Assembly: GCA_028753945.1 (NCBI GenBank)
Contig: JAPNXP010000001.1
Span: forward strand, 496,001 to 560,000
Length of the DNA: 64,000 bases
Direction: 5' to 3'
From: Hexactinellida sp. DTS-2022
Lineage: Eukaryota > Porifera > Hexactinellida
Of the stretch, positions 31,281-53,442 are shown in pieces. The position numbers were made by a program, and so were the translations under genes. Numbering within the stretch: the stretch's first letter is position 1; each line of letters opens with the position of its first letter. Under the pieces are notes generated by a model. That model was not told where the DNA came from, made no database searches, and saw only the letters and a list, made by a program, of their open reading frames with translations.

Positions 31281-34200
31281 ATGGCTTGCAAGAAACAAGG
31301 AACTATTGGCAGTAAGTTATAGAATATGTTCATTCATATTGTTATAACTAATTAACGTTATTATAACCATTTAATAGAGTCTCACGGTCAAAGGGTCCCT
31401 CCACTCATTAACACAATCATCAGTACGCTTCGCAATTATCCCGATGGAAGTCAGATTCTTAAGGTAGGGGATTTAAAACAGTTATTTTGGTATTTACAAA
31501 TGTTGTGTTTAGGAATTGATTCAGAACGCAGATGATGCTTCTGCCACTGAAGTAGAATTCCTATTGGACTTAACTCAGCACGGGACAGAATTCCTATTAC
31601 ACCCTGATGTTGCTAAGTACCAGGGCCCAGCACTATATGCATGGAACAACGCAGTATTCAATAAACACGATTGGGAAGGAATCCAAAACATTGGTACGAG
31701 TAGAAAGGAGACAGAAGTTCTCAAAGTTGGGAGATTCGCTTTGGGATTTATTTCTGTTTATCACATAACAGGTGTGAATACAATATTAATAGACTAGTAT
31801 ACCTCTAATATTATTATTGAAACTTTTTAGATTTTCCCTGCATCCTGAGCAATGATGGAATCCTCCTCCTTGACCCACATATGGTTATTGACGACACGGG
31901 CGGACTGTTGATAGATTTGGAAGAGTTTTCTACTTACGAAGGTGTGAAGAGTCACCTCAGCTGTTTTAAGGATTATTTCGGCTACGATGGGAAAGGGTCC
32001 TACGAAGGTACGATATTTCGTTTCCCATTAAGAACAGGCAAATACCAAACTTCTCTCCCTAAGAACGTATACGACTCAAATAGGGTTCTAGAATATCTGT
32101 TCAGACCCTTCAAACAGGAGGTAGAGAACTGTCTCCTGTTTATGAAGAGTTTGAATGCAATCAGGGTGTCTGTTAAGGAAGAGACAGGCATTGTTAGACA
32201 GCTTTATTCAGCTGAGATTAATCCTGTCCATTATAGAGACAGTTTGGAACTACACAGACAGCAAATGTTTAAGTTTATCGAAGCAAAGAAGTATTTAGAA
32301 ACGTCTAGCTGTCACATTTCTATCTTCCCAGTTAGTTTAATTGAATTCGATCTCAGCAAAACTATCAGTCTTTGGCTTGTAATCAATATCCTCGGTTTAA
32401 TGGACAACATATCGACAAGCGAGTTTTCTGTGTCTTATAGCAAGCTCTCTGACACATACCTCCCGTGGGTATCCGTTGCTATACCGCTACCTTTCTCTCA
32501 GCTGACTTTTCAGTGCATAACCGAACAACACTGTTGGTCAATGGAATTTGAGACTATAGCTAGGCTATTTGAATTGATTGATACACATTTACCGATAATT
32601 CCGCTATCAAGCGAGGTTACCGACTTTGTCGGAAGTTTGTTTTGCTTCCTTCCAGTCGCAACCAGTTCCCAGTTCCCATTCCATGTGCAGGGGTACTTCG
32701 CACTTAGTACGAACCGCCGCTCCATCAAATGGCCGCGGTATGACGACACCAGCTTAGACGCCGCTTGGAACAAACAGCTGGTCGAGAGTCTGGGTACCGT
32801 ATCCTATGCAGTTCTGATGCATATCTGCGTGTCTAGACTGGAGTGTGGGGGCAGCAGTGCCTTTGTGTATAAGCTCCTCTCCTGTCTCCCTCCTGACAAC
32901 CAGCAGGACCAGCTACAGGCCGTAATGCACAGGGGTATGTTAGAACTAGTGCAAGCCAGAGCTCTCGTGTGTACTAATGAGTGTCAGTGGGTGTCTCTCC
33001 AGACTGCGTACTTCCTCCCCTCTCCGTTCGGGACCCACAGCATTCCCTGTGAGAAGATATGCGCTGAGTTCCTAACTGCTCTCTCGTATGACGTAGTGGA
33101 GGTGCCATCGGGCGTGGCACGAGTGTTGCTGGAATATTCCTTTTTGAGCGAAAGAGTTGTGCCCCAAATCGTGTCTCCTAACATGGTGCGAGAACTTATG
33201 GTGCGTTATAAGGAGGAGAGGTGCTTGACAGATTTCCTCTTAAATAAAAACAATGTTTATTCCCTTCTCGAGGTTGTGCTGTCAGATATTTACAGCTATC
33301 CTAACGATGCTGTTTTGAATGGAATTCAATTAATTCCTAATTGCAATTCAGAATTACCAGAAACTTTTAATACCAAATTAGACCATAAGTTTTACATCTA
33401 CGAACAAGGTTTGGAATTAATAAAACTGTTTCCAGGTCTCGAGAACAAATTTATCGAGGCAGCTCTGCCTCCTGGCTTACACGCCTCTTTATTAAAGTTA
33501 AGTAGGAAATTACGGATAAATATAATTGATATTACCAATATCAGAAATGATGCTAAGCTTTTCTATAACTTTCTGAAGTGCTCAATGCAGCGTTACTTTT
33601 ACACAGAATCAATTGTTAAGTGGACACCTGGAGTTAACGGGCAGCCGAGTACAACTTGGATTGAAAGTGTGTGGAAGTTTATAAGTAATAATAGCAAAAT
33701 AATTGAAATTCTGATACAGAATAAATTGCCTATTTTACCGAAACAGAATGTATCGTTATCACTGGAAATAGACCTGCTCCCTATAATTGCGGTCCCCACT
33801 CCCTACATGAAGCTAAGCAACAAGCCTGCTTACTCTAGGATAGAGAAATTGCTTGCTGATAGCGGATGCCATCTCTGTTATAAGAATACATTTATTAGTG
33901 AATTCCATCAGTTTGTCTCTCAGTCGCTACCGAAGGGTTTCTTTCCTATTCTACGACTCGCAAATATTAAAAATAATTTTCTTAAAGAACTCTCCAAAGC
34001 TGATACTCCTACTCGACAGTCTCTGATTAAAATAATTATGAATAGTGAGCTCGCTGTTCAGAGTGATTTGAATTTATTAAAGTCATTTCCTATTTTTATT
34101 TCTGTTCCAAACACCTGGGTTTCTATCAGTCAGTTCACACAATGTTTAATTCCGCATAACTCTATACCACAAGATTGTGTCCATTTCCCGGATAATTACT

Positions 34201-37200
34201 TGAGCCCATTTGTAAACGACAACATAGTTCTATGTCGCCAACTAAACATAAGCCCTTTGTCTCTTGATGCTACGATACAGCAACATTTGCTACCTTTGAT
34301 TTCAAAGGGGCACTTCAATAGCGTTCCTAGAGAACTCGAAAAACTAACCTTGTGGATTTTAAGAAGCGCTTATTGTCTCAATCAAGATACGATTAGAAGC
34401 TTATCTGCTGCTAAATGGCTCTGTAGCTGTAGTCCCAATAACAAAACTGCAATAAGGACATTATACTCTCCTCCTAGTCTCTTTGATCCTAACGATAAGC
34501 ACTTAGCAAAACTGCTCGGTACTAACTCACCTGGTATGTTCCCTAATAATTTCTATAAAAACTGTAATGAAGTGCTAATATATCTCGGTTTGAAAACTTG
34601 TAAAAATTTAACGTATGACAACCTACGTACTGTTGTAGCGGCGTCGCTACGTACTATTCCTCTTGAGGAGAGACAGGATTGGTTGAATTCTCTGTTGAGC
34701 GTAATAAGCATTAATTTCGACAAATTAAATCTTTCCAAACAACAATTTTGGAGTACACTAAAACAACATAGTTTCCTAATCCCTTCATCTCGCTCCCAAT
34801 GCACTGCCTACCCTAATTATCTGCCTTTTTTTAAGCATTCAAGCGATCTCTGTAAGCCTCATGAGATAATACTTTGTTCAGATACAGATGCTTGTTTGAT
34901 CGCCGGCGTGTCTCCACTACTAATTGAGAATGAAAATAGGATGAAAAAGTATAGGGAAATATATCAGTGCATGGGTGTTGGTGTGACAATTCCATCTCAA
35001 CTAGTTTGTAAACAGCTGAGACTTATAATCACAAATTTAACAGATCTAGCAAGTGGTGATGTACTTGTTCTAGTTGAGAAAATATACAAATATTTCGGCG
35101 AATTGATTGTTGCAAATCCTGATTCTTTTCGGCGCAATGTCGTGTGCATGTTACCTCAAAATTGTATTCTTGTTCCCGATTTCGGGTTTACCAATTCTGA
35201 AAATTTGATTTTAAAATGTCACGAAGTCTTATTTCCTTATATGGTGTCACTTGATAAGTATTATGCCATCTCTGATAATTATTTATCTGCTTTTTTCAAG
35301 GTTCTAAATATCGACCCACATCTTACTTCCGCTAAATGTCAGTCTATTCTTAGACAGCTACAAGGCACTACTCTGTCTGTGGAGCAAGTAGGATTATCTC
35401 TACGTCTCATTCAATACTCACATCACTTTATTGGTGCTGAAACAACTCCTGTAGAGTATCTAATCCTAGCTCAGAATAATAACATTTATCCTGCGAGAGA
35501 ATGTATGTTCAATGATTTGCCCTGGCTCCGGCGCGCTGAGATATCAGCCCCAAAACCTATTGTCTACGCCCATATTTCCAATAAGTTAGCTAGCGATTTC
35601 GGCTGCACGCCCGCGAGCACTGCACTGGCCCCCTCTGCTCAGGGCATCTCATACTCGTTCGCTACTGGTTGCGGTCAGAGCGAGGATCTCGTCGCTCGTT
35701 TGACGGGGATCTTAGAGGGATACCGTATGCAGTTGGACGTATTCAAAGAGCTCATTCAGAACGCTGATGATGCAGGGGCTCGCACAGTTAAAATCCTATT
35801 CGACTATACCACGCATCCTTCCACTTCAGTGTTGGACGAAGCCATTAAGGATATCCATGGTCCTGCTTTGTACTTTTTCAATGATGCTGTGTTTACTGAG
35901 AGGGATTTTGAAAGCATTCTTAAACTGTCCTCGGGGAATAAAGTCAGTAGTGCGAACAAAATAGGTAGGTTTGGTGTTGGGTTCAATGCAGTGTACAACT
36001 TAACAGATTGTCCTAGCTTCGTAAGCGATTGTAATGTTCAAATTTTCGATCCTCTCAAGAAGTACATTGGTCCTTATAAACAATCACCCGGTGTAAGATT
36101 CCGTTATACAGAGGATAAATCCGCGTTGGATACTTACCATGATCAATTCAATGTGTATAACGACATATTTGGTTGTAACCTTCTACAACTTGTACCGTAT
36201 AAACACACACTCTTTCGATTACCCTTCCGCCGAACTCCCAGTAATCTGTCGAGTCAAACGTTTGGGGTTGAAGACATTTGTAAACTTCAATCCACTACTG
36301 AAGAAAAAATGACTCAAATGATTTTTTTCTTGCAAAACGTCAATTGTATTGAAATATTTGTAAGAAAGAAACCAAATTCAATCGAAAGAGTCCTGTCAGT
36401 AAATAAAAGTGATTGTAAAACTACTCATTTCATTTCTAATAATCAGCAATATTTTCAGCTTTCTCCTAGTGTAAATTGGCCAACCCATATAATTAGTTCA
36501 ACAGACACTCTTTCTATCACATCCGAATCCACAACAGAGCGTTTTGAGCAGAAATTTCTTATTTCTTACGCAAGTGGAGTTGGAAAGTGTCACGAAGTAT
36601 TACGGAAATTCAAAAATAAATCACCTAACATTAGTCTCCTACCGCTATGTGGAGTTGTGATTCCTTTACATCATATATACCACATGCCAAATGACCCGGA
36701 CTGTAGTTTGTATACTTTCTTGCCTCTACCCATTAGTAGCCCTCTGCCCTTGCATATTAATGGCTACTTTTCGCTTTCTGATTCTAGAAAGAATCTGAGT
36801 GATGCGAAAACACACATGTACCCAGATCTCCCCACGGAATGGAACTTGGCACTCATTACCGACGCTCTCCCTAACGCTCTCATCTCTGCAGTCGCTGCGC
36901 TGCCTAATCTAGAGCCTCTCTCCGGCACTCCTGATATGCAATGGCTTTGTAACTACTACGCTCTATGGACTGGAGCTAATAGGACAGATTTGTTATGGAA
37001 AGATTTCTCTAGCAATCTAGCTTCTCGCATTGTGAAGTCATTTAATTCAACTAACATATTTTCTTGTGCTCAGGACCCTAGCAAATGGATTACTTTTAAC
37101 GATACTTCTTTCCTCTCGCTTGACGACACACTGACTCATAACGCTCCTTTTATTGAGTGTATTTACACACTGTGTCTTGCTATTCATATCAAGTTTGCTA

Positions 37201-40200
37201 ATGTTCCTAAAGAGTTCTTCTCTACCGACGTATTCAAGGCATTTTCTATCCTTGCACCGGCTAAAGTATTTGGCCTCAAGAGAATAATCGAAGAAGTGCT
37301 TTCTCCCAATATTTCCATTCTAACATTAGAACAAATTATAATTATTTTCAAGACACTTATTCCTTTGTGCATTAGTGAGACAAATAACTGGTTAGTCAGT
37401 TGGTTATGCGAAACAGAATTTATCCCATGTGGAGATAGCCCTAATAGCTTCCAGTTGAGAACTCCCTCAATGGTAGTTTCTCTAAATACAAATATATCGG
37501 CTCTGTACCAGGCCAGAGAACGGAGACAGCCCGTAAGAGAACTCCGCGACATGTTCTCTTTAAATACCTCCGATCACACTTCCATAGTGCTGAAGAGATT
37601 GGGAGTTATTCACGATAGACTGCCTCAATCTGAAATTATCGGTCGTTGTCAGATCACTGAGAAATTGGAAAATATTGAATTGGCTATACAGCATGCATTA
37701 ATTCTGATTGATTACTTGTCAAATGAAGGTAAATCAGTTATGAGCTCTGTGTACAGTACAATACGATCCATTCGCTTTATTCCCGTTTATAAAGATGAAA
37801 TACTTACAATCCTCTCAGATAAACTCCCCACTCTTGCTGCCCCTCAGGAGTGTTACTCCTATTCCCTTCATAATCTGGTGACACCAGTTCTCGTGTGCGC
37901 TAGCAGAGAGGTTGGGGACCCCAGGGTATTGCGTCTCTTGTCCGACCCTCCTCTTGAAGCTGTCATACTGGTATTAGATAAACTCATCGAGAAAGCTGAT
38001 ATATTCCGCGAGGAAATAAATATTAAAGTAAAGGTATTAGAAATATACAAATACCTTTGTCAACTCCACACTTCTCGGTTGGAAGAAATCAATGTTAAAC
38101 TGAACAAAAAAACATGGATATGGCACCCAGAATTTAAAGAGTTCTACGCTGCTAACCAAGTAATTATTTCACCTGACTTGTTGAAATTTGGAGACAACAA
38201 ATATTTAATTAGTTTTCCGTATAGAGACGCTTTAGGAGATAAAAACTTTGAAACTTTCTTGAAAAAAGTTGGATTAGAATTTGGAATTAATGATGATAAT
38301 ATTATAGCTTGTTTTGAGAGAATTTATTCCGGCTTTGGTACAAAACCCTTAAACCCTAATCTAGTTGAATTTGTGCTATTCCTTATTAATTCTATCAAAT
38401 CCTTTGAGAGATTTTCGAATATCAGATGTATTGTAAGTCAGTATAATATTCTCCATCGACCCAAAGAGCTATATATAAATTTTTACTCTCATTTGGATAG
38501 TCATTTTTCCGAAGAACACTACAAATTGATGGTAAATTCCAACATTCACCCTGCCAAAGCCTACAAACTAGGGGCTAGACCTTCTGAGGAAATGTTCTGT
38601 ACAAATTCAGATTCGGAATTTGGCCTAGAGGAAGATATCACGGATCGAATTATGGGTTTAATTAGAGAAATGCCACTCAGTTCTGTTCTCAAGGAAATGA
38701 TACAGAATGCCGAAGACGCAAAAGCAACAGAAATTGTATTCATTCTTGACGATCAAGACTACAGCTCCAAAACTGAGACTCTCATTAACAGCATGTGTCC
38801 ACGTTGGAAAGATCTTCACTCTTTCCCATCTCTAACTGTATACAACAACAAAGGATTCTCCGACGAAGATATCAAAGGTATTCAGACTCTCAGTGTTGGA
38901 GGGAAGAGCAATGATCCTAATACCATCGGGAAATTCGGTCTCGGTTTCAACTCTGTTTATCATGTTACGAATGCTCCCACTTTTATAACCTCGTGTCCAG
39001 GAAAGAAAGGCTTAACATTTTGCTGTTTTGATCCTTTCCTTAACTATACCGAAAATCGATATGGAAATAAAAATAAAAAACGAGGAAAACTGAACGAAAT
39101 ACCTTGTGATAATTATAAGATGTTTGCTGACCAACTGTACCCCTTTATCTATGAAGATTTTAAAAATAACTCAGACTTTAATGAGAGTTTCGTAAATCTT
39201 TTGGAAAATCCTGATTTTACAATGTTTCGCTTCCCACTAGATATAAATGAAACAGATTGCAAAGGTAAGAGGAGACATTGCTCCATTGATGAGTTAGGCA
39301 AGGGGTTGATGGATGTACTAAACGAGTGTCCAGATATTCTCCTCTTCCTTTCTCATCTGAGCAAGCTGAAGGTTCTTAGCATAGACAGAAACAAGAATGT
39401 AACTCTACACTATTCTCTTTCTGTTGCACCTGTTGCACCTAAGGAGCGAATTGAAAAACCCAGCTGGTTTCCGCTAAGAAGACCCGCTTACATACAAACA
39501 CAAGAAAAAGTACATACCTTCCGCCAGTCAACCTCAAAGCAACATCAAAAGAATTGGCTTATTTATTCACAGTCCGTTATTGCTATTGAGGAGTATATAT
39601 CTAGCGATGCAAAACTTGGAGAATACAAGAACTATTGTTTAAATGAAAAGTTATCTGGATACGGTGCAATAGCGATCCAAACTTCACCTTTGAAATCTCA
39701 AAGTTTTTGCAATCTCTTCACTCACTTGCCAGTTGGTCTCAGAACACAGTTTCCAGTTCACATCAATGCGCCTCTAATCCTCGACTCTTCGAGACAGAAT
39801 TTGCACTCTCGAAAGATTCCTTGGGAAGACGCTTGGCACTCGTCTGTCATTAAACATATTCTAGTTCCGCTCTACGCTATGCTGCTGTTAGATCTCCGTT
39901 GCAACAAGAGACAGTTAAAACGGCGTGATTACTTTAATTGGTTCTATTCGCTCTTCCCAAATAGCAGTATGAGTGCTAATGCTTTCTTATCAGAGTTGAG
40001 TAGTGAACTTTGTATATTTCTTTCTTTCATTAATGCTCCGTTGTTGCTTGCAGATGATCTAGATATGCTAGATGAAAGGACCTGGTATACTCTTAGTGGG
40101 AATAAATGTGGCATCTTTAAGCCTAGCGCTTTCTTCAAGATTCCTACTAAGTCTACAGATGTATATGACTCACTTAATGCCCGTGATATTATAAAACACG

Positions 40201-43200
40201 ATGAAAGAGAAAATGAAATTCGAAAATCGCTTATCCTGATTAGTATACCTTTGACCTTTGCTCCTCTTACTCTCTTATATTGTTTCAAGAATCTTACTCA
40301 GTTAAGCCCTACTTTACTTCTCTCGCATCTGAACCATGCGCCCAAATGTTTAGTAGAAGAACAAGCTACTTCTTGTAATATTGAATCCTTGGTTCTTAAT
40401 TTTCAACAAATGCAAACTATTTTACAATACATTTTAACAGAAGAATTTTCTGTACTAGCAAGATATAAAATTCCCTTGCGAATTGACCTATGCAATAACT
40501 TAGGAGACTTCGATACAAATGATCCTTCCTATCTCTCTGACTACTCCTCACTCTTGCCCCACTGCGCTCAAAACTTTGTTTCTCCACACTACAGTTATTC
40601 GGTTATTCGCAAATTACATACTTTGAATTTTGTGAAGAGTTTGGACCCGAACTTTCTAGCGAAACACTTGAATGTAGAATCTTTCCAATGCTCTACCGAC
40701 TACTACCTATTTTGGGAGTTTGTTTTGGTTAATAAAATGAGTAAGGGAAATCTCTCAAAGTTTGATAAGCACTTACTCGTCCCAGTTATTTTTGAAACTA
40801 TCAATTGTAATGAGAACAGATACTTTTCAATCAGTCAATTGAAGTTTATAATTACGTCATTACTTCAAGTTGAGCAGAAAGTTCTCTTTGATTTGTTAAA
40901 TAAACTTGGGTGTCCTCACCTAAATTTAAATTCATTATCAATCCCAACTAAAATTACTATGAACCCTGATAATTTAATACATGATTTAGATGCTTTTCTT
41001 AATACGATTGCGATTTCAGATATTAGAGCATCGGATATAATTCTTGGTTCAATCCAATGTTGTACTAATTTAACCTCTGCCATTTTAAACCCCGTTGAAT
41101 CTACTGAGCTACTAAATATTTGTTCTAAGCTCACTCCCTCTACACTCTCAAATGATCAGCTCAGTACTCTCTCCTCTCTTAAAATGTTTGAAGATCTTTC
41201 TTTCCAATTATTATCACTTGAACAATGTCAAATATGTTACGTAGATGAATATGGGATTCCACTCTGCTCTACTCTATTGAAAATTCTTTATGATAAATAT
41301 AAATTAATAATTTTCAAGAATATTCAAGGGAAATTCCTCCAATCACTTTGTCAAGCCCTGAATATACGGTTGATTAATATCAGTGTCTTATTTTCTGAAT
41401 ATATATTCCTGGATCTACCAATTTTTCCTTTTGCAGATAAAAAGGAAATAATGTGTTTTTTAGCAGCAAAATTAGCGGAAAACAAACACGATTTAATTTC
41501 TCAGCTCATCGATCTTTTGACTAACGTTCCATTTATCTTAGCAACTGACCAAAATTATCGTAGAGTTAACCAGCTGTATTCTTCGGATATACAATTCATT
41601 TCAGCATTCTTACCTTGCAGTTCTCTCCCAGGAGATTGGAGTGGTTCAAACCTAACACATTTATTCAATACACTTGGTTTACGTAAATTTGTCTCTTTAG
41701 ACGATATACTGTTAGTTGCTACTGAATTTTCTAAGCAAAAGTTTAAATCTGAACAATTACAAATACTACTAAATCAACTTGTAATTATTTTTAATAACAT
41801 TAATTGGGAGAAATTGACACAAGGCGAATTCGATATATTGTCAAAACTTGGAAAAATTAAATTTCTCCCAGTTTGGAAGAAGACAGACATTACTAAAGAG
41901 CATAATCAGACTAAGTTAGCTAAGTTCTCTGACGCTCAACTGTACGAGCATCGTCACTGCTGTTCTACTTCTGCTTGGATACACAAATTTTCATTCAAAT
42001 TCAATCCTCTTTCTTTCCAGGTATTGCAAATACATGAAGATCCAAATCCAGAACTCGTTGTAGTTCATCTTAAGACAATCATTAGTCAACTGCTCTCGCA
42101 CTACTGTCATACTGATATTCCAGTTGAGTATGAGAAATACTTCCATTCTTGCTATTCATATTTCGAGACAAATATGATTAGCTCTTTGCCTATTTCATTG
42201 GAAGAATTTAATAAACTTCGCTGTATCCTATGGAAACAACAACTATACTATCCTGTGAACATGTTGTTCACAGCCACGGAAGAGCTTAAACCATTTATAA
42301 TCCAGCTTCCGCCTAAAATCGCATCGCAATACCCAACTTTCCTGAAGTGTATCGGAGTTGAAGAGACAGCTAATCACACTCATTTCTCCTACGCCTTGAC
42401 AGAGATACACAATATGTTAGTAAAGAAGAAACTTAAATTAGTTGATAGCGATTATGAAAAACAAGCAAAGATTGTTTTTAATTTGCTAATTAGGAATTTG
42501 AGAAAACTTGAGAGCGCTGGTAATTCTCCAGATCTTAATTTAGCAAAATTTCTTCTGTTGACTCGAGACTCCCAACTTCTCCCTAGCCTAGTAATTTGGT
42601 ATGCGGACAGCCAGTCTCTCTTAAGTAGAGTCACAAGAGTTAAGATTGTTGTTAATATTCTGATACCCTTAGAACCGGATGATAATAAATCCTGTGTTCC
42701 TCCTTCCTGCCTAAAATTGGAAAATCTAAGCAGTATTATCAAAGAGGAGATTGATCCCCAGGTTTTTATGTCTAAGAAAATCAGTACAACTAGATTCGCC
42801 AAGTTCTTAAACGGTAGATTGAAAGAACCATTAGTATACCATGCAATGCACAGACTGTATTTTCATTTGACTAAAAACGACTTGGATCATCTAGTGGTTT
42901 ACAATGGTCAGTCCTTGTTGGTTTCTAGCGGACATCCTCCTACAAACTTCCTTACTGTTCTTCAGCTTCTGAATAGACTTAATGTTGAATCTGTGGAACA
43001 AATAGATCTCAACTTAATAGACAAGCGAAACTCTTCTAAAAAGTATGTATTACAGAATGCCTCCAGCTGTTATATAAAAGACGACAAATTTATCTTGTCA
43101 GATCACCATACTATGTACGAATTCTTGTATAAAGACGTAGCCTACAATCTCAATTCATACTTTGGAGACATATTCACCGAGGTTCTTTACTGCCTCGAGG

Positions 43201-45027
43201 TGTGTATACAGATAAATGACCCGAGTGGGATCATGGCTAAGCTAGATGAGTATAACATACTGCGAGATGACACCTGTCCCATGCCCACGGATAATAGAGA
43301 TTCTGTAGCAGGTAGAAATAGACATTTAGGAAATCACCCGTGTTCAAACGCTCCTAGACAACCACCTAGACCCGAAGGTTTTTCTCTCGGAGAACCTGAC
43401 CCTTCTGCTGCTCACCTGTCCCTCGTTGTATCGCAATATGAGCTCCTAGCGGCACAACACCTCATCACCCCTATCCAACCCAAAAAGAATATCTTTCCGC
43501 CCCTCGCGTGTTTCCTTTGCTTCGAAGCTCTTATAAACATATTTCAATCTTTTCTACATTTTAAAGGCTCAGTAGAGAGACTTACAAAACAACGTAACTT
43601 ACGTGTTTTCCTTAAATTTATTTCCCATCTATTGAATAATGAAGAGATTTACCCGAAAATTGAGGTGTTAACTTGTACCCTCATGAATTATGATGTTGAC
43701 ACCCGCTACCCACCTGATTCTCTTATCCCATTTTTAGGCTGTAATCTGCCGCAACAGTTGTACACTGCCGATCAAGCTAGAGAAGCTATTGATAACGTTA
43801 AGGAAATATTTGTACTATTAACAAGTATAATGTACCCTGATCATACTGGGGTAATTCTATTTGAACAAGACCCAATGTTGACCTGTAGAACTTCTTCAAA
43901 ACCTCCGGACATTGAATCCATCCTACAGTGTAAGTTATAATTTATAATAAAGTTGTAAATAAACACAGCAGAGTTGGAATCGGGTCCACTTTTCAGAACC
44001 CGACCCGACCCGAACCCGACAATATTCAACCCGAACCCGACCCGAACCCGACGATCTTCAACCCGAACCCGACCCGAACCCGAAGTGTATATAAATGTAG
44101 ATATTAACTGAAATTCCTCTAAAATATATGTTCTGTTGACATTTCAACTAATATTAGTCAAACAAGTATGGGGCCATTTCATTAAAGTTCCATATATTGT
44201 TTCTATTGTAAATATTATATAATCTTTCAAAAAATAGAATTAAATCATTGAATTAAAAAAAATTACGCACAAAGTTCGAACTGATCAACTTCGAACCCGA
44301 ACCCGACACGAACCCGATTCTAAATCCGAATCTGAACCCGAACCCGACCCGAACCCGACCCGACCCGAGAAATCCGAACCCGATTCCAACTCTGAAACAC
44401 AGTATTGTTTTCAAGCTATCATAGTTTATTCTATATTTATTTATGTACGTATTTATTCTATTAGTTGATGTTGGGAAGAATATTCGGCCGGTTAGGCTTG
44501 AACCTGAAAGTCGGGAATTCAAGTATATATTACGTAGGTTTCTCCAGTCCATGCCATACTTCGTTGTAATGTCAGTTGTTCGAATTCACAATCCACACAG
44601 TTGGGGTGAGTTTAGGAAGAATATTTTACAAGAAAAAAAATTGTATCCGAATATATATCAAACAATCCGTCTACTCTTCCACGGGACTAGCGACGTTCAC
44701 CCTGATAAAATTATTTACGATGATGATGGCTTCAACGTGAAATATGCACACGGAGGCTTATGGGGGAAAGGCATCTATTTCGCAGAAAAATCTTCTTACG
44801 CACACCGCACCTACACCTTCAAAGAGAAGACTGGAAACCAATGCATGTTTGCTGCATCTGTGTTTATTGGGAATTCCAAAGAACTGCCTGAGAACAGATC
44901 CATCACAGGTCCCCCTCCGAATTACCACAGCGTGCAAGGCAAGCGGGATGGTGAGCTAATCCATACAGTCTATAGAAACTGCATGGCATACCCAGCTTAC
45001 CTGATTACGTATAGAGCCCATGACTAA
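31281..45027 (+). CDS. Giant sacsin-like protein with HEPN-like domain and C-terminal PARP catalytic domain
   Basis: Exons 31281-31311, 31378-31463, 31513-31771 and 31831-43929, then probably 44465-45027; all junctions keep frame, giving 4,345 residues. Three sacsin repeats each start with an HSP90-type ATPase: [10 protein letters not shown] near residue 40, [10 protein letters not shown] near 1,430 and EMIQNAEDA near 2,415. Repeats 2 and 3 keep the glycine-box [11 protein letters not shown] and [11 protein letters not shown]; repeat 1 has [16 protein letters not shown]-like segment with the sacsin-type DTRYP motif spans about 3,985-4,128. No DnaJ HPD motif is seen. Exon 5 (residues 4,159-4,345) is a PARP fold: [27 protein letters not shown], without the catalytic Glu, so mono-ADP-ribosyl transfer is expected. 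If exon 5 is not joined, the frame ends at 43,940 and an AATAAA follows at once. Confidence 0.75.
43930..44464 (+). repeat. Intron between HEPN and PARP exons with GAACCCGACC minisatellite
   Basis: Two clusters of short tandem units based on CCCGAACCCGA lie at about 44,010-44,085 and 44,290-44,395. The same arrangement, with fewer units in the second cluster, is in the duplicate at 50,608-51,135. The intron starts with a full GTAAGT donor and ends TTCTATTAG. Confidence 0.8.
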
Positions 45028-45217
45028 CGGGAATTTGTTATAGGAATATATGGACGAATATATGGATTTAGTTTTTTATTTGTTTTTGTAATTTGTATTC
45101 ATTTTTTATTTATCTCGATCTCGATTTTACTATATTTACGTATTGACTTAGTTAGTTAATTACATATTATCCTTATTGTGTTCCCGGTTATTTATTAGTG
45201 TTGTACGCATATTGCCA

Positions 45218-45976
45218 ATGGTACGTAAGCTTCACGATTTATGCATCCTAGCTATTGAACTGAACCTCAAATATGTTCCGAAGTTGAGAATCAAACTACC
45301 TAGCTATCTGAGAGAGCTTCTGCTCTATCGATTGGCACTCCATAGTAATCTCAGTCCGGCCCAGCAGCCTTATGTTACTTACAACTTGTTTTCAGAAACA
45401 CTCAAGCACATTAACTTCAGTAACTGTGCTCAGATAACTGACAACTTGTTCGATCTCCTAACTGCCTGTGAGTGTAAACTAACCAGTTTTTGTATGAATG
45501 CAAGCGAAGGATTCACTGCTGACGGTCTTGCTAACTTTCTGCTTTCGCAAGATGAATTAGAAATACTAAAATTGAAGAGGCTTCATTCTTTGTCTCCCTC
45601 TGACACGTTTAATGGCAGGGTTCGCTCTCCCAAACTCAGCGCGCTATCGCTAACGCACAGCGACTGCTTCGCAGATAAACTGCTGCTATCGATCGGTGCG
45701 TTCTCTCACGGCATTACGAAGCTGCGGTTAGAGGGCATGAAGTATGTCACCGACGAAGGAGTTGTCGGGCTGCTGAAGCAACAAACCGAGGGGAAGTTTA
45801 AGATATTTAAAGTTTCTCGAATGTTCCGATTAACTGCTCGAACTTTGATGGCATTTGCTGAATTCGCTCCTAACCTTGAGCAGCTGATTATCCCCAATTG
45901 TGTCAAAATAACTCCTGAGTCATTATTGGAACAGATTGCAAAGGTAAGAGGAGAAATTGCTCCATTGATGAGTTAG
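45218..45976 (+). pseudogene. AMN1-like leucine-rich-repeat gene, copy A, truncated by duplication junction
   Basis: From the ATG at 45,218 the frame equals the first 237 residues of the gene at 51,883 almost perfectly, then at base 45,929/45,930 the sequence switches to the sacsin-like gene, read in another frame, and stops 15 codons later (end IAPLMS). The last half of the LRR domain is lost. A truncated product may be made, but I treat it as a by-product of the tandem duplication. Confidence 0.8.
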
Positions 45977-48900
45977 GCAATGGGTTGATGACTGTACTAA
46001 ACGAGTGTCCAGATATTCTCCTCTTCCTTTCTCACCTGAGTAAGCTGAAGGTTCTTAGCATAGACAGAAACAAGAATGTAACTCTACACTATTCTCTTTC
46101 TGTTGCACCTGTTGCACCTAAGGAGCGAATTGAAAAACCCAGCTGGTTTCCGCTAAGAAGACCCGCTTACATACAAACACAAGAAAAAGTACACACTTTC
46201 CGCCAGTCAACCTCAAAGCAACATCAAAAGAATTGGCTTATTTATTCACAGTCCGTTATTGCTATTGAGGAGTATATATCTAGCGATGCAAAACTTGGAG
46301 AATACAAGAACTATTGTTTAAACGAAAAGTTATCTGGATACGGTGCAATAGCGATCCAAACTTCACCTTTGAAATCTCAAAGTTTTTGCAATCTCTTCAC
46401 TCACTTGCCAGTTGGTCTCAGAACACAGTTTCCTGTTCACATCAATGCGCCTCTAATCCTCGACTCTTCGAGACAGAATTTGCACTCTCGAAAGATTCCC
46501 TGGGAAGACGCTTGGCACTCGTCTGTCATTAAACATATTCTAGTTCCGCTCTACGCTATGCTGCTGTTAGATCTCCGTTGCAACAAGAGACAGTTAAAAC
46601 GGCGTGATTACTTTAATTGGTTCTATTCGCTCTTCCCAAATAGCAGTATGAGTGCTAATGCTTTCTTATCCGAGTTGAGTAGTGAACTTTGTATATTTCT
46701 TTCTTTCATTAATGCCCCGTTGTTGCTTGCAGATGATCTAGATATGCTAGATGAAAGAACCTGGTATACTCTTAGTGGGAATAAATGTGGCATCTTTAAG
46801 CCTAGTGCTTTCTTCAAGATTCCTACTAAGTCTACAGATGTATATGACTCACTTAATGCCTGTGATATTATAAAACACGATGAAAGAGAAAATGAAATTC
46901 GAAAATCGCTTATCCTGATTAGTATACCTTTGACCTTTGCTCCTCTTACTCTCTTACATTGTTTCAAGAATCTTACTCAGTTAAGCCCTACGTTACTTCT
47001 CTCGCATCTGAACCTTGCGCCCAAATGTTTAGTAGAAGAACAAGCTACTTCTTGTAATATTGAATCCTTGGTTCTTAATTTTCAACAAATGCAAACTATT
47101 TTACAATACATTTTAACAGAAGAAATTTCTGTACTAGCAAGATATAAAATTCCCTTGCGAATTGACCTATGCAATAACTTAGGAGACTTCGATACAAATG
47201 ATCCTTCCTATCTCTCTGACTACTCCTCACTCTTGCCCCACTGCGCTCAAAACTTTATTTCTCCACACTACAGTTATTCGGTTATTCGCAAATTACATAC
47301 TTTGGATTTTGTGAAGAGTTTGGACCCGAACTTTCTAGCGAAACACTTGAATGTAGAATATTTCCAATGCTCTAACGACTACTACCTATTTTGGAAGTTT
47401 GTTTTGGTTAATAAAATGAGTAAGGGAAATCTCTCAAAGTTTGATAAGCACTTACTCGTCCCAGTTATTTTTGAGACTATCAATTGTAATGAGAACAGAT
47501 ACTTTTCAATCGGTCAATTGAAATTTATAATTACGTCATTACTTCAAGATAAGCAGAAAGTTCTCTTTGATTTGTTAAATAAACTTGGGTGTCCTCGCCT
47601 AAATTTAAATTCATTATCAATCCCAACTAAAATTACTATGAACCCTGATAATTTAGTACATGATTTAGATGCTTTTATTAATACGATTGCGATTTCAGAT
47701 ATTAGAGCATCGGATATAATTCTTGGTTCAATTCAATGTTGTACTAATTTAACCTCTGCCATTTTAAACCCCGTTGAATCTACTGAACTACTAAATATTT
47801 GTTCTAAGCTCACTCCCTCTACACTCTCAAATGATCAACTCAGTACTCTCTCCTCTCTTAAAATGTTTGAAGATATTTCGTCCCAATTATTATCACTTGA
47901 ACAATGTCAAATATGTTACTTAGATGAATATGGGATTCCACTCTGCTCTACTCTATTGAAAATTCTCTATGAGAAATATAAATTAATAATTTTCAAGAAT
48001 ATCCATGGGAAATTCCTCCAAGCACTTTATCAAGTCCTGAATAAACGGTTGATTAATATCAGTGTCTTATTTTCTGAATATATATTCCTGAATCTACAAA
48101 TTATTCCTTTTGCAGATAAAAAGAAAATAATGTGTTTTTTAGCAGCAAAATTAGTGGAAAACAAAGACAATTTCATTTCTCATCTCATCGATCCTTTGAC
48201 TAACGTTCCATTTATCTTAGCAACTGACCAAAATTATCGTAGAGTTAACCAGCTGTATTCTTCGGATATACAATTCATTTCAGCATTCTTACCTTGCAGT
48301 TCTCTCCCAGGAGATTGGAGTGGTTCAAACCTAACACATTTATTCAACACACTTGGTTTACGTAAATTAGTCTCTTTAGACGATATACTGTTAGTTGCTA
48401 CTGAATTTTCTAAGGAAAAGTTTAAATGTAAACTATTACAAATACTACTAGATGAACTTGTGATTATTTTTAATGACATTAATTGGGAGAAATTGACACA
48501 AGGCGAAGTCGATATATTGTCAAAACTTGGAAAAATTAAATTTCTCCCAGTTTGGAAGAAGACAGACATTACTAAAGAGCATAATCAGACTAAGTTAGCT
48601 AAGTTCTCTGACGCTCAACTGTACGAGCATCGTCACTGCTGTTCTACTTCTGCTTGGATACACAAATTTTCATTCAAATTCAATCCTCTTTCTTTCCAGG
48701 TATTGCAAATACATGAAGATCCAAATCCAGAACTCGTTGTAGTTAATCTTAAGACAATCATTAGTCAACTTCTCTCGCACTACTGTCATACTGATATTCC
48801 AGTTGAGTATGCGAAATACTCCATTCTTGCTATTCATATTTCGAGACAAATATGATTAGCTCTTTGCCTATTTCATTGGAAGAATTTAATAAACTTCGCT

Positions 48901-50607
48901 GCATCCTATGGGAACAACGACTATACTATCCTGTGAACATGTTGTTCACAGCAACGGAAGAGCTTAAACCATTTATAATCCAGCTTCCGCCTAAAATCGC
49001 ATCGCAATACCCAACTTTCCTGGAGTGTATCGGAGTTGAAGAGACAGCTAATCACACTCATTTCTCCTACGCCTTGACAGAGATACACAATATGTTAGTA
49101 AAGAAGAAACTTAAATTAGTTGATAGCGATTATGAAAAACAAGCAAAGATTGTATTTAATTTGCTAATTAGGAATTTGAGAAAACTTGAGAGCGCTGGTA
49201 ATTCTCCAGATCTTAATCTAACAAAATTTCTTCTGTTGACTCGAGACTCCCAACTTCTCCCTAGCCTAGTAATTTGGTATGCGGACAGTCAGTCCCTCTT
49301 AAGCAGAGTCACAAGAGTTAAGATTGTTGTTAATATTCTGATACCCTTAGAACCGGATGATAATAAATCCTGTGTTCCTCCTTCCTGCCTAAAATTGGAA
49401 AATCTAAGCAGTATTATCAAAGAGGAGATTGATCCCCAGGTTTTTATGTCTAAGAAAATCAGTACAACTAGATTCGCCAAGTTCTTAAACGGTAGATTGA
49501 AAGAACCATTAGTATACCATGCAATGCACAGACTGTATTTTCATTTGACTAAAAACGACTTGGATCATCTAGTGGTTTACAATGGTCAGTCCTTGTTGGT
49601 TTCTAGCGGACATCCTCCTACAAACTTCCTTACTGTTCTTCAGCTTCTGAATAGACTTAATGTTGAATCTGTGGAACAAATAGATCTCAACTTAATAGAC
49701 AAGCGAAACTCTTCTAAAAAGTATGTATTACAGAATGCCTCCAGCTGTTATATAAAAGACGACAAATTTATCTTGTCAGATCACCATACTATGTACGAAT
49801 TCTTGTATAAAGACGTAGCCTACAATCTCAATTCATACTTTGGAGACATATTCACCGAGGTTCTTTACTGCCTCGAGGTGTGTATACAGATAAATGACCC
49901 GAGTGGGATCATGGCTAAGCTAGATGAGTATAACATACTGCGAGATGACACCTGTCCCATGCCCACGGATAATAGAGATTCTGTAGCAGGTAGAAATAGA
50001 CATTTAGGAAATCACCCGTGTTCAAACGCTCATAGGCAACCACCTAGACCCGAAGGTATTTCTCTCGGAGAACCTGACCCTTCTGCTGCTCACTTGTCCC
50101 TCGTTGTATCCCAATATGATCTCCTAGCGGCACAACACCTCATCACCCCTATCCAACCCAAAAAGAATATCTTTCCGCCCCTCGCGTGTTTCCTTTGCTT
50201 CGAAGCTCTTATAAACATATTTCAATCTTTTCTACATTTTAAAGGCTCCGTAGAGAGACTTACAAAACAACGTAACTTACGTGTTTTCCTTAAATTTATT
50301 TCCCATCTATTGAATAATGAAGAGATTTACCTGAAAATTGAGGTGCTAACTTGTACCCTCATGAATTATGATGTTGACACCCGCTACCCACCTGATTCTC
50401 TTATCCCATTCCTAGGCTGTAATCTGCCGCAACAGTTGTACACTGCCGATCAAGCTAGAGAAGCTATTGATAATGTTAAGGAAATATTTGTACTGTTAAC
50501 ACGTATAATGTACCCTGATCATAGTGGGGTAATTCTATTTGAACAAGACCCAATATTGACCTGTAGAACTTCTTCAAAACCTCCGGACATTGAATCCATC
50601 CTACAGT
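45930..50607 (+). pseudogene. Second, 5'-truncated and frameshifted sacsin-like copy
   Basis: From the junction at 45,930 the sequence repeats 39,251 onwards of the full gene. It lacks repeats 1 and 2 and the ATPase part of repeat 3. A one-base deletion at about 48,820 (TACTCC where the full copy has TACTTCC) breaks the frame; the downstream frame resumes near 48,852 and runs to the HEPN-like end. Amino-acid changes are more frequent around 47,990-48,190 than elsewhere. No start context is preserved, so a functional protein is unlikely unless splicing bypasses the break. Confidence 0.85.
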
Positions 50608-51135
50608 GTAAGTTATAATTTATAATAAAGTTGTAAATAAACACAGCAGAGTTGGAATCGGGTCCACTTTTCAGAACCCGACCCGACCCGAACCCGACAA
50701 TATTCAACCCGAACCCGACCCGAACCCGACGATCTTCAACCCGAACCCGACCCGAACCCGAAGTGTATATAAATGTAGATATTAACTGAAATTCCTCTAA
50801 AATATATGTTCTGTTGACATTTCAACTAATATTAGTCAAACAAGTATGAGTTAATAATATTTATCCCATAAATGTCCTTATGAGGCCATTTCATTAAAGT
50901 TCCATATATTGTTTCTATTGTAAATATTATATAATCTTTCAAAAAATAGAATTAAATCATTGAATTTAAAAAAATTACGCACAAAGTTCGAACTGATCAA
51001 CTTCGAACCCGAACCCGACCCGAACCCGACCCGAACCGAGAAATCCGAACCCGATTCCAACTCTGAAACACAGTATTGTTTTCAAGCTATCATAGTTTAT
51101 TCTATATTTATTTATGTACGTATTTATTCTATTAG

Positions 51136-51698
51136 TTGATGTTGGGAAGAATATTCGGCAGGTTAGGCTTGAACCTGAAAGTCGGGAATTCAAGTATATA
51201 TTACGTAGGTTTCTCCAGTCCATGCCATACTTCGTTGTAATGTCAGTTGTTCGAATTCACAATCCACACAGTTGGGGTGAGTTTAAGTATAATATTTCCC
51301 AAGAAATTACTAAGTATCCGAATATATATCAAACTATCCGTCTACTCTTCCACGGGACTAGCGACGTTCACCCTGATAAAATTATTTACGATGATGATGG
51401 CTTCAACGTGAAATATGCACACGGAGGCTTGTGGGGAAAAGGCATCTATTTCGCAGAAAAATCTTCTTACGCACACCGCACCTACACCTCCAAAGAGAAG
51501 ACTGGAAACCAAAGCATGTTTGCTGCATCTGTGTTTATTGGGAATTCCATAGAACTGCCTGAGAACAGATCCATCACAGGTCCCCCTCCGAAATACCACA
51601 GCGTGCAAGGCAAGCGGGATGGTGAACTAATCCATACAGTCTATAGAAACTGCATGGCATACCCAGCTTACCTGATTACGTATAGAGCCCATGACTAA
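51136..51698 (+). CDS. PARP catalytic exon, copy B
   Basis: A full-length copy of the PARP exon at 44,465 with the same phase, acceptor and stop. It keeps [20 protein letters not shown] and YPAYLIT. Upstream it would be joined to the frameshifted sacsin copy, so its expression is uncertain; alternatively the ATG at 51,114 could start a 194-residue protein. A block of about ten residues (KYNISQEITK against [10 protein letters not shown] in copy A) is strongly diverged in an otherwise near-identical domain. The fold predicts ADP-ribosyl transfer. Confidence 0.7.
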
Positions 51699-51882
51699 CG
51701 GCAATTTGTTATAGGAATATATGGACGAATATATGGATTTAGTTTTTTATTTGTTTTTGTATTCATTTTTTATTTATCTTGATCTCGATTTTACTATATT
51801 TACGTATGGACTTAGTTAATTAATTACATAATATCCTTATTGTGTTCCCGGTTATATTATTAGTGTTGTACGCATATTGCCA

Positions 51883-53442
51883 ATGGTTCGTAAGCTTCAC
51901 GATTTATGCATCCTAGCTATTGAACTGAACCTCAAATATGTTCCAAAGTTGAGAATCAAACTACCTAGCTATCTGAGAGAGCTTCTACTCTATCGATTGG
52001 CACTCCATAGTAATCTCAGTCCGGCCCAGCAGCCTTATGTGACTTACAACTTGTTTTCAGAAACACTTAAGCACATTAACTTCAGTAACTGTGCTCAGAT
52101 AACTGACAACTTGTTCGATCTCCTAACTGCCTGTGAGTGTAAACTAACCAGTTTTTGTATGAATGCAAGCGAAGGATTCACTGCTGACGGTCTTGCTAAC
52201 TTTCTGCTTTCGCAAGATGAATTAGAAATACTAAAATTGAAGAGGCTTCATTCTTTGTCTCCCTCTGACACGTTTAATGGCAGGGTTCGCTCTCCCAAAC
52301 TCAGCGCGCTATCGCTAACGCACAGCGACTGCTTCGCAGATAAACTGCTGCTATCGATCGGTGCGTTCTCTCATGGCATTACGAAGCTGCGGTTAGAGGG
52401 CATGAAGTATGTCACCGACGAAGGAGTTGTCGGGCTGCTGAAGCAACAAACCGAGGGGAAGTTTAAGATATTTAAAGTTTCTCGAATGTTCCGATTAACT
52501 GCTCGAACTTTGATGGCATTTGCTGAATTCGCTCCTAACCTTGAGCAGCTGATTATCCCCAATTGTGTCAAAATAACTCCTGAGTCATTATTGGCAGTCC
52601 TGTCGATCTGTGAGAAGTTAAGTGTACTCGAGATTCCAATCACAACAAGCTTAACTGGCCCCATATTCGATGAGATTATTTCGCAGAAATGGAGTAGCAT
52701 CCAACGCCTTAATATAAGTGGAAATGAGATTAATCTCGGGGCTGTTCCTCAGTTGCCTTTGTCTTTCCCAAATTTAAAAAAATTCTCTTTCGGAGGCGGC
52801 ACTCAAATTGATAATTTAACTTTCGAAAAACTTCTAAAAAATTTCAATGGTTTGACTTCTTTTGATTGCATGTACTATTTGAATGCCACCCAAGAGACTT
52901 CAGAATTGATTGCCAAATACTGTCACTCACTAGAAAGGTTAGCAATCTGCGCTTGGCCAATAAATGGGGAGGGGTTGCTCCCTTTGTTTGAAGACGAGAG
53001 AGCGCTTAAGCTGACTTATGTCGAGCTTACTGCTTGTAAGAATACTTCCCCCAAAGTTATAAATGCTCTTATAGGCAACTGTAAGAATATTGAGTATCTG
53101 TTTTTACGCGGAATAAATATTGTTGATGACCAAACTGTATACGACATTGCTTACAATCTGAAACGCCTTAAGAAGATCAGTTTTCGCGGTTGTACTCACA
53201 TTGTTCAGGAGGATAGCTTAATAGAACTTGTACTGCAGTGTAAAATGCTACAGTTACTAAGTTTCCCTGGGCTATTGTGCGTGAGAGACCGACTAATCCA
53301 CGTCATGGCTGACAACCTATTCCATCTGGAGGAACTGTACTTGGCGGGTTGCAATAACGTCAGTGCTCAGGCGCTAGCGTACCTCCGATTGAGAACAACC
53401 TGTACTCTGTTTGTAGAGCACAAACAGATTGGAACTAAATAA
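51883..53442 (+). CDS. AMN1-like leucine-rich-repeat protein
   Basis: A single-exon frame of 519 residues, ATG at 51,883. The N-terminus VRKLHDLCILAIELNLKYV followed by LPSYLRELLLYRL matches the start of AMN1/ZYG11-like proteins, where such segments bind E3 ligase partners. About 15 cysteine-containing leucine-rich repeats follow (for example LKHINFSNCAQITDNLF, LEELYLAGCNNVSAQAL). No F-box is apparent. Proteins of this group recognise substrates or partners in ubiquitin or mitotic-exit pathways. It lies about 180 bases downstream of PARP copy B; the truncated copy A has the same position relative to PARP copy A. Confidence 0.85.
   Translation: MVRKLHDLCILAIELNLKYVPKLRIKLPSYLRELLLYRLALHSNLSPAQQPYVTYNLFSETLKHINFSNCAQITDNLFDLLTACECKLTSFCMNASEGFTADGLANFLLSQDELEILKLKRLHSLSPSDTFNGRVRSPKLSALSLTHSDCFADKLLLSIGAFSHGITKLRLEGMKYVTDEGVVGLLKQQTEGKFKIFKVSRMFRLTARTLMAFAEFAPNLEQLIIPNCVKITPESLLAVLSICEKLSVLEIPITTSLTGPIFDEIISQKWSSIQRLNISGNEINLGAVPQLPLSFPNLKKFSFGGGTQIDNLTFEKLLKNFNGLTSFDCMYYLNATQETSELIAKYCHSLERLAICAWPINGEGLLPLFEDERALKLTYVELTACKNTSPKVINALIGNCKNIEYLFLRGINIVDDQTVYDIAYNLKRLKKISFRGCTHIVQEDSLIELVLQCKMLQLLSFPGLLCVRDRLIHVMADNLFHLEELYLAGCNNVSAQALAYLRLRTTCTLFVEHKQIGTK

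Follow-up and report, generated by a model that had tools for sequence, protein, structure and literature searches.

The open reading frame for a PARP-type ADP-ribosyltransferase downstream of a giant sacsin-like exon in Hexactinellida sp. DTS-2022 (Porifera) is very probably the last exon of the same gene. The window analyzed here is a stretch of 64,000 nucleotides (nt) from contig JAPNXP010000001.1 of the assembly GCA_028753945.1 (positions 496,001 to 560,000, forward strand). The predicted protein of ~4,345 residues would consist of three sacsin-type ATPase repeats followed by a linker, then a HEPN-like bundle, and a PARP12-like C-terminus. A single spliced polypeptide with these parts was proposed in the initial annotation of the window. 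It is supported by the splice junctions in all eight readable copies in this genome, by the shared topology of the trees for its parts, by low ratios of nonsynonymous to synonymous substitution (dN/dS) in the pairs B-E and F-G, and by the PARP frames without methionine in the copies B and E.

The gene in the window (copy A, 31281-45027) is composed of five exons. The spliced coding sequence is 13,038 nt long and codes for 4,345 amino acids (aa), with the terminal stop only. The introns other than the last are 49-66 nt long. The position 31831, where the feature of the initial annotation starts, is the start of exon 4; the gene begins upstream with three short exons.

31281..31311, + strand: exon 1, with the putative start codon and residues 1-10; GTAAGT donor, phase 1; the start codon is inferred
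31378..31463, + strand: exon 2, AG acceptor and GTAGGG donor; similar sequence is present upstream of the paralogues F and G
31513..31771, + strand: exon 3, first part of sacsin ATPase repeat 1 with its N-box; Pfam SACS 116.7 bits; spliced residue 40
31831..43929, + strand: exon 4, the giant sacsin exon; Pfam SACS 440 bits in 3 stretches; repeats 2 and 3 have their N-boxes at residues 1432 and 2414 of the spliced protein
43930..44464, + strand: last intron, GTAAGT...AG, phase 1; kept in 8/8 readable copies
44465..45027, + strand: exon 5, PARP catalytic domain and stop; Pfam PARP 65.8 bits

Conservation of the splice junction

The last base of the giant exon is 43929, followed directly by GTAAGT from 43930. 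The unspliced reading finishes with CKL and an in-frame stop, which ends at 43940. The acceptor is TTCTATTAG, and the PARP exon starts at 44465. The phase-1 donor and the two lead bases of the acceptor constitute the junction codon TTT, and the spliced coding sequence is open to the terminal stop. The donor, the acceptor and the phase agree with the initial annotation. Its statement that the PARP homology starts exactly at the acceptor stands for the alignment of paralogues, which crosses the junction, but not for the Pfam match, which begins 15 residues into the exon.

The search with the SACS profile found 42 matches in the 112-Mb genome. They represent nine large loci (A in the window, and B to I) and fragments on contig C18. 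A PARP exon is present downstream on the same strand in seven of the nine large loci (A to G), that is, in six besides the window locus. No PARP was found within 2.8 and 2.4 kb past the stops of H and I, respectively, nor for either locus in the genome PARP searches. When the window PARP was used as a query, the eight copies, including the partial tandem copy A2 in the window, scored 436 to 110.7 bits. A relic beside sacsin pieces scored 60.5 bits, and the best PARP without nearby SACS scored 57.1 bits.

All eight readable copies have a phase-1 GTAAGT donor, 5 to 116 nt ahead of the next in-frame stop. Their acceptors all have AG and two lead bases in the matching phase, with TTT, TTC or ATC as the junction codon. 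As A2 is nearly a duplicate of A, and F of G, the eight junctions count as six. GTAAGT occurs elsewhere in these exon stretches 11 more times in 80,222 nt. At this frequency, about 1.6% of copies would be expected to have one within 120 nt of a stop. The last introns differ greatly in length (A 535, A2 528, B 924, C 823, D 223, E 16,088, F 677 and G 861 bp). The number of identical bases in the 30 nt before and the 30 nt past GTAAGT drops in all five pairs tried: 30 vs 11 for F/G, 22 vs 10 for B/E, 17 vs 10 for C/E, 15 vs 7 for A/G, and 15 vs 9 for D/B.

The initial annotation pointed to the conservation of the junction in A2. A2 does have the donor and the acceptor, but it is a recent duplicate with 96-98% identity, and such conservation is weak evidence. 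The A2 junction was thus set aside as a proof of fusion; the informative copies are those elsewhere in the genome.

A transposon in the last intron

The apparent spacer of 535 bp between the sacsin and PARP frames is an intron of 101 bp into which a transposon has inserted.

43969..44394, no strand assigned: hAT-like miniature inverted-repeat transposable element (MITE), 426 bp; perfect terminal repeats of 17 nt; AAACACAG duplicated (8 bp) at 43961-43968 and 44395-44402

Without the MITE and one copy of the duplication, the last intron is 101 nt long. The spacer looked intergenic because the MITE was inserted into this intron, which is otherwise nearer in length to the 49-66 nt introns of the gene. 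We take the MITE to be of hAT type from its 8-bp duplication. Stretches related to it show 63 dispersed matches in the genome, some of which are pieces of one copy.

Phylogeny and selection

Maximum-likelihood trees of the sacsin core, the HEPN-like part and the PARP part for A, B, C, D, E and G showed one topology, (((B,E),C),D),(A,G). The lowest support in the three trees was 58, at the B,E node of the PARP tree. The simplest reading is that the fusion arose once.

The dN/dS values by the NG86 method for the PARP exon and the end of exon 4 were 0.20 and 0.24 between B and E, and 0.27 and 0.16 between F and G. The value for the PARP exon between B and C was 0.19. dS was not computable in five of nine PARP pairs and six of nine exon-4 pairs.

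Domains of the predicted protein

The order of domains is three sacsin ATPase repeats, a proline-rich linker, the HEPN-like domain, and the PARP12-like ADP-ribosyltransferase exon. The N-boxes characteristic of the sacsin GHKL ATPase are found at spliced residues 40, 1432 and 2414. The first, ELIQNADDA, is in the upstream part of the gene (exons 1-3, 31281-31771). Three repeats are counted because repeat 1 is split over exons 3 and 4. Repeat 2 matched sacsin crystal chains with an E-value of 2e-37. A DnaJ domain was not reported in the 4,019-aa frame of exon 4 (E 0.1) or in the 3′ parts of B, C, D, G and H (E 1).

43407..43928, + strand: HEPN-like domain closing exon 4; Pfam HEPN 16.1 bits in the window copy (cut-off 22)

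Scanned by themselves, the final 174 codons of exon 4 gave HEPN scores of 16.1 bits in A, 23.4 in C, 23.2 in D, 19.7 in G, and 17.9 in E. Inside the long frames, it scored 17.4 in C, 17.2 in D, and 14.0 in G, and it was not reported in the 4,019-aa frame of the window at E 0.1. The HEPN domain of the initial annotation thus exceeds the Pfam cut-off in the paralogues C and D when this segment is scanned alone, but not in the window copy itself. No position of the R-x4-6-H ribonuclease motif is common to all copies, and A, B and D have no such motif. A binding or dimerizing domain is more likely than a nuclease.

The score of exon 5 (65.8 bits) is above the Pfam PARP cut-off of 26.7 bits. In the comparison of the PARP family profile with solved chains, the closest was PARP12 (3.4e-26), followed by PARP14, PARP15 and ZC3HAV1. 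The FHG and YFA motifs, whose residues we take to be H and Y of the H-Y-E triad, are invariant in all eight copies. The C-terminal AYP segment, which may be offset from the exact column of the third triad residue, has no Glu in the seven copies that reach it. The YP segment without Glu suggests that the domain may catalyze mono-ADP-ribosylation.

Origin of the module and related proteins

The PARP-less paralogues H and I and three cyanobacterial proteins (L058, L061 and L062, the bacterial proteins in this alignment) align with A to E and G up to a common LD-x-x-x-I-like segment and end soon after it. Past this segment, A to E and G continue into the proline-rich linker and HEPN. Because H, I and these bacterial proteins end near the start of the linker-HEPN-PARP module, this module has probably been added to a sacsin core at its end. 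Another bacterial protein, L072, is a variant in its tail, with a NOV_C domain.

Tiamat TmtA is a bacterial anti-phage protein. PADLOC named exon 4 of the window TmtA, with 313 bits in 3 stretches, the best of which covers positions 12-337 of the 1370 of the profile. All three bacterial proteins scanned (L058, L059 and L072) were also named TmtA, among them both of the cyanobacterial relatives scanned. The likeness is in the sacsin-type ATPase region. The matching open reading frames (ORFs) differ from the window protein: of 32, some of them cut at contig ends, 28 have a single sacsin stretch. The PARP profile showed no match at E 0.1 against ORFs of at least 60 aa in 90 sacsin-domain loci (80 prokaryotic, the best 80 of 122, and 10 viral). 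No PARP was confirmed in viral contigs, and none was found in phage records. Paper searches for Tiamat found nothing. Cyanobacterial sacsin-like proteins (L056-L071, from Microcoleus, Oscillatoriales, Phormidium and their kin) rank first by E-value, with 35-40% identity to the animal domain over 226 residues.

The predicted window protein resembles sacsin (SACS) in its three HSP90-like ATPase repeats and putative C-terminal HEPN-like domain. Unlike in sacsin, no DnaJ or ubiquitin-like domain was reported in exons 3 and 4, the exons scanned. The window protein ends in a PARP domain, but the sacsin architectures in the excerpts of PMC3710099 do not. The same excerpts describe sponge sacsin-like proteins with DEATH domains, and, together with those of PMC8195603, fusions of TRADD-N to sacsin or macro-PARP in invertebrates. 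These fusions are alike in coupling sacsin or PARP to other immune domains, but none in the excerpts joins sacsin and PARP.

PARP12, PARP14, PARP15 and ZC3HAV1 bear CCCH, WWE or macro domains. They share with the window protein the catalytic domain and the YP segment without Glu, whereas the partner of the window PARP is a sacsin-HEPN protein. No description of sacsin and PARP in one protein was found in the literature searched, in which sacsin with PARP alone was not a search term, and such proteins may already be annotated in animal protein databases.

Alternative explanations and proposed function

Several observations weigh against the explanation favoured here. Upstream of the PARP exon, an in-frame Met codon precedes it by 8 codons in both A and A2 and by 22 codons in G, and Met is the second full codon of the exon in C and D. 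The window copy has AATAAA 8 and 20 nt past the intronic stop, and a PARP-less isoform is possible for this reason. There is no consistent rise of identity at the acceptor over the five pairs. Identity before and after it is level in F/G (28, 28) and falls in A/G (17, 14), and it rises in B/E (9, 15), C/E (14, 17) and D/B (10, 12). The sacsin part of F is in two overlapping frames of the giant exon and its PARP frame ends early, and therefore the locus F is probably decayed. The sacsin part of E is in two separate frames of 726 and 3,454 aa, due to an extra intron or decay. Within the 16-kb last intron of E are two ORFs, one for OTU and one for a P-element-like transposase. The decayed relic on C18, with scattered sacsin pieces followed by PARP pieces in order, has no GTAAGT in the 1.6 kb read. 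dN/dS between A and A2 is 0.71 in the PARP exon, where changes are few, and 0.22 at the end of exon 4. HEPN is under the cut-off of 22 in A, E and G, and none is found in B scanned alone; the HEPN profile finds no solved HEPN among the chains in PDB. Structure predictions for the HEPN region and the PARP exon, with two window sequences each, were unusable (predicted local distance difference test, pLDDT, 43.7 and 31.5).

Two adjoining genes, one for sacsin-HEPN that stops at 43940 and a small one for PARP that begins near 44443, would fit the in-frame stop 8 nt past the donor, the close AATAAA, and the Met 8 codons upstream of the window PARP exon. They are very improbable given the phase-1 donor and matched acceptor in 8/8 readable copies, as well as the spacer, which shrinks to an intron of 101 nt when the MITE is taken out. 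In B and E, the PARP frame has no Met in the N-extension or the first 60 residues, which indicates that an upstream exon is needed, and that of F has none before residue 28. AATAAA is present within 300 nt of the intronic stop in four of the eight copies (A, A2, B and G), but within 100 nt only in A and A2. The initial annotation had named transcripts ending at the AATAAA past 43940 as a sign of separate genes; the restriction of a nearby AATAAA to the window copy and its duplicate weakens this signal. It is also unlikely that alternative isoforms are produced, with retention of the last intron or polyadenylation leading to sacsin-HEPN, and splicing leading to sacsin-HEPN-PARP, so that the effector is switched on by splicing. 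The AATAAA of the window and the very short tails past the donor in several copies (CK, CKL and CKLYC) are consistent with such a switch. However, the tails range from 2 to 39 residues across copies, the AATAAA signal is not conserved, and the family already includes two sacsin-like members without PARP, H and I.

The fusion protein may function as a sensor of stress or infection with a built-in effector. The linker-HEPN-PARP module was most likely joined once to the end of the sacsin core, with later diversification into the multigene family. The following mechanism is proposed tentatively, and its chances fall just short of even. The repeats would bind a protein or complex derived from stress or infection in an ATP-dependent manner. 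A conformational change or assembly would then bring the HEPN-like region, probably a non-catalytic binding domain, and PARP to the target, and the bound target would be mono-ADP-ribosylated. The whole explanation, comprising the fusion protein, its single origin and the action of a sensor with an effector, is fairly likely. It is possible, if doubtful, that these genes constitute an immune family of the animal lineage with many members, whose Tiamat/sacsin-type ATPase, as the sensor, would carry a mono-ADP-ribosyltransferase effector in the same polypeptide, detect infection or proteotoxic damage and modify its target. If true, this would tie bacterial TmtA-type defence to antiviral PARPs. 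A housekeeping factor for proteostasis like vertebrate sacsin, with a PARP that is inactive or marks aggregates and has no immune role, is rather unlikely. Sacsin is called a chaperone in the excerpts of PMC3710099. The HEPN nuclease motif without conservation and the YP segment without Glu are also compatible with housekeeping. Against it are the invariant H and Y of the PARP triad in 8/8 copies and the match of the window exon to the TmtA anti-phage profile. Multigene families with decayed members, such as the one here, are more usual among defence genes.

Relatives of sacsin occur among virus-responsive genes in fish and oysters, and an immune context for the window gene is suggested by analogy with published excerpts. 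There, sacsin is among the antiviral effectors in an oyster study (PMC7064767), is listed repeatedly in a review of how fish respond to nervous necrosis virus (PMC8875540), and is included in a gene set diversified in corals (PMC6208414). A sacsin-like gene is in the region with the highest fixation index (FST) in a scan for oyster resistance (PMC9437489). In lumpfish, sacs is repressed by poly(I:C), and sacs-like is in the list for quantitative PCR (PMC11357929). The predicted fusion would unite, within a single protein, three types of elements recurrent in defence systems. Since ADP-ribosylation can be assayed directly, a natural fusion to an enzyme with this output hints at what the ATPase repeats might control.

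Other observations

The partial tandem copy A2 follows the window gene.

45927..51965, + strand: partial tandem copy A2; the 3′ portion of exon 4, in two overlapping frames; the MITE-bearing intron; PARP exon 51136-51698

It is 96-98% identical to 39248-45300 and has no 5′ part; the end at 51965 is the limit of the comparison. The introns of A (43930-44464) and A2 (50608-51135) are 99.4% identical over 494 aligned bases, with 75 gap columns. The flanking exon stretches are 96-97% identical, and the difference suggests conversion or uneven change after duplication. A frame with the same start is present after each PARP copy in the window (45176-45973 and 51877-53439). The second shows weak leucine-rich-repeat matches and the first none. 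The frame was probably duplicated together with the end of PARP.

FAM117, present upstream, is in keeping with an animal genome. One further sacsin fragment, J, is located at 5.342-5.349 Mb of C18. On the same contig, a RanBP-type zinc finger (L030:361-519, 33.8 bits) is encoded upstream of the PARP-less sacsin-like H; it may be the N-terminal exon of H.

Twelve PARP matches with equal scores, in open frames of 207 aa, form a separate set. Nine are in 48 kb on C6 (G000:C6:2100142-2147613), and one each on C3, C4 and C12. This set represents a recent amplification, perhaps carried by a mobile element.

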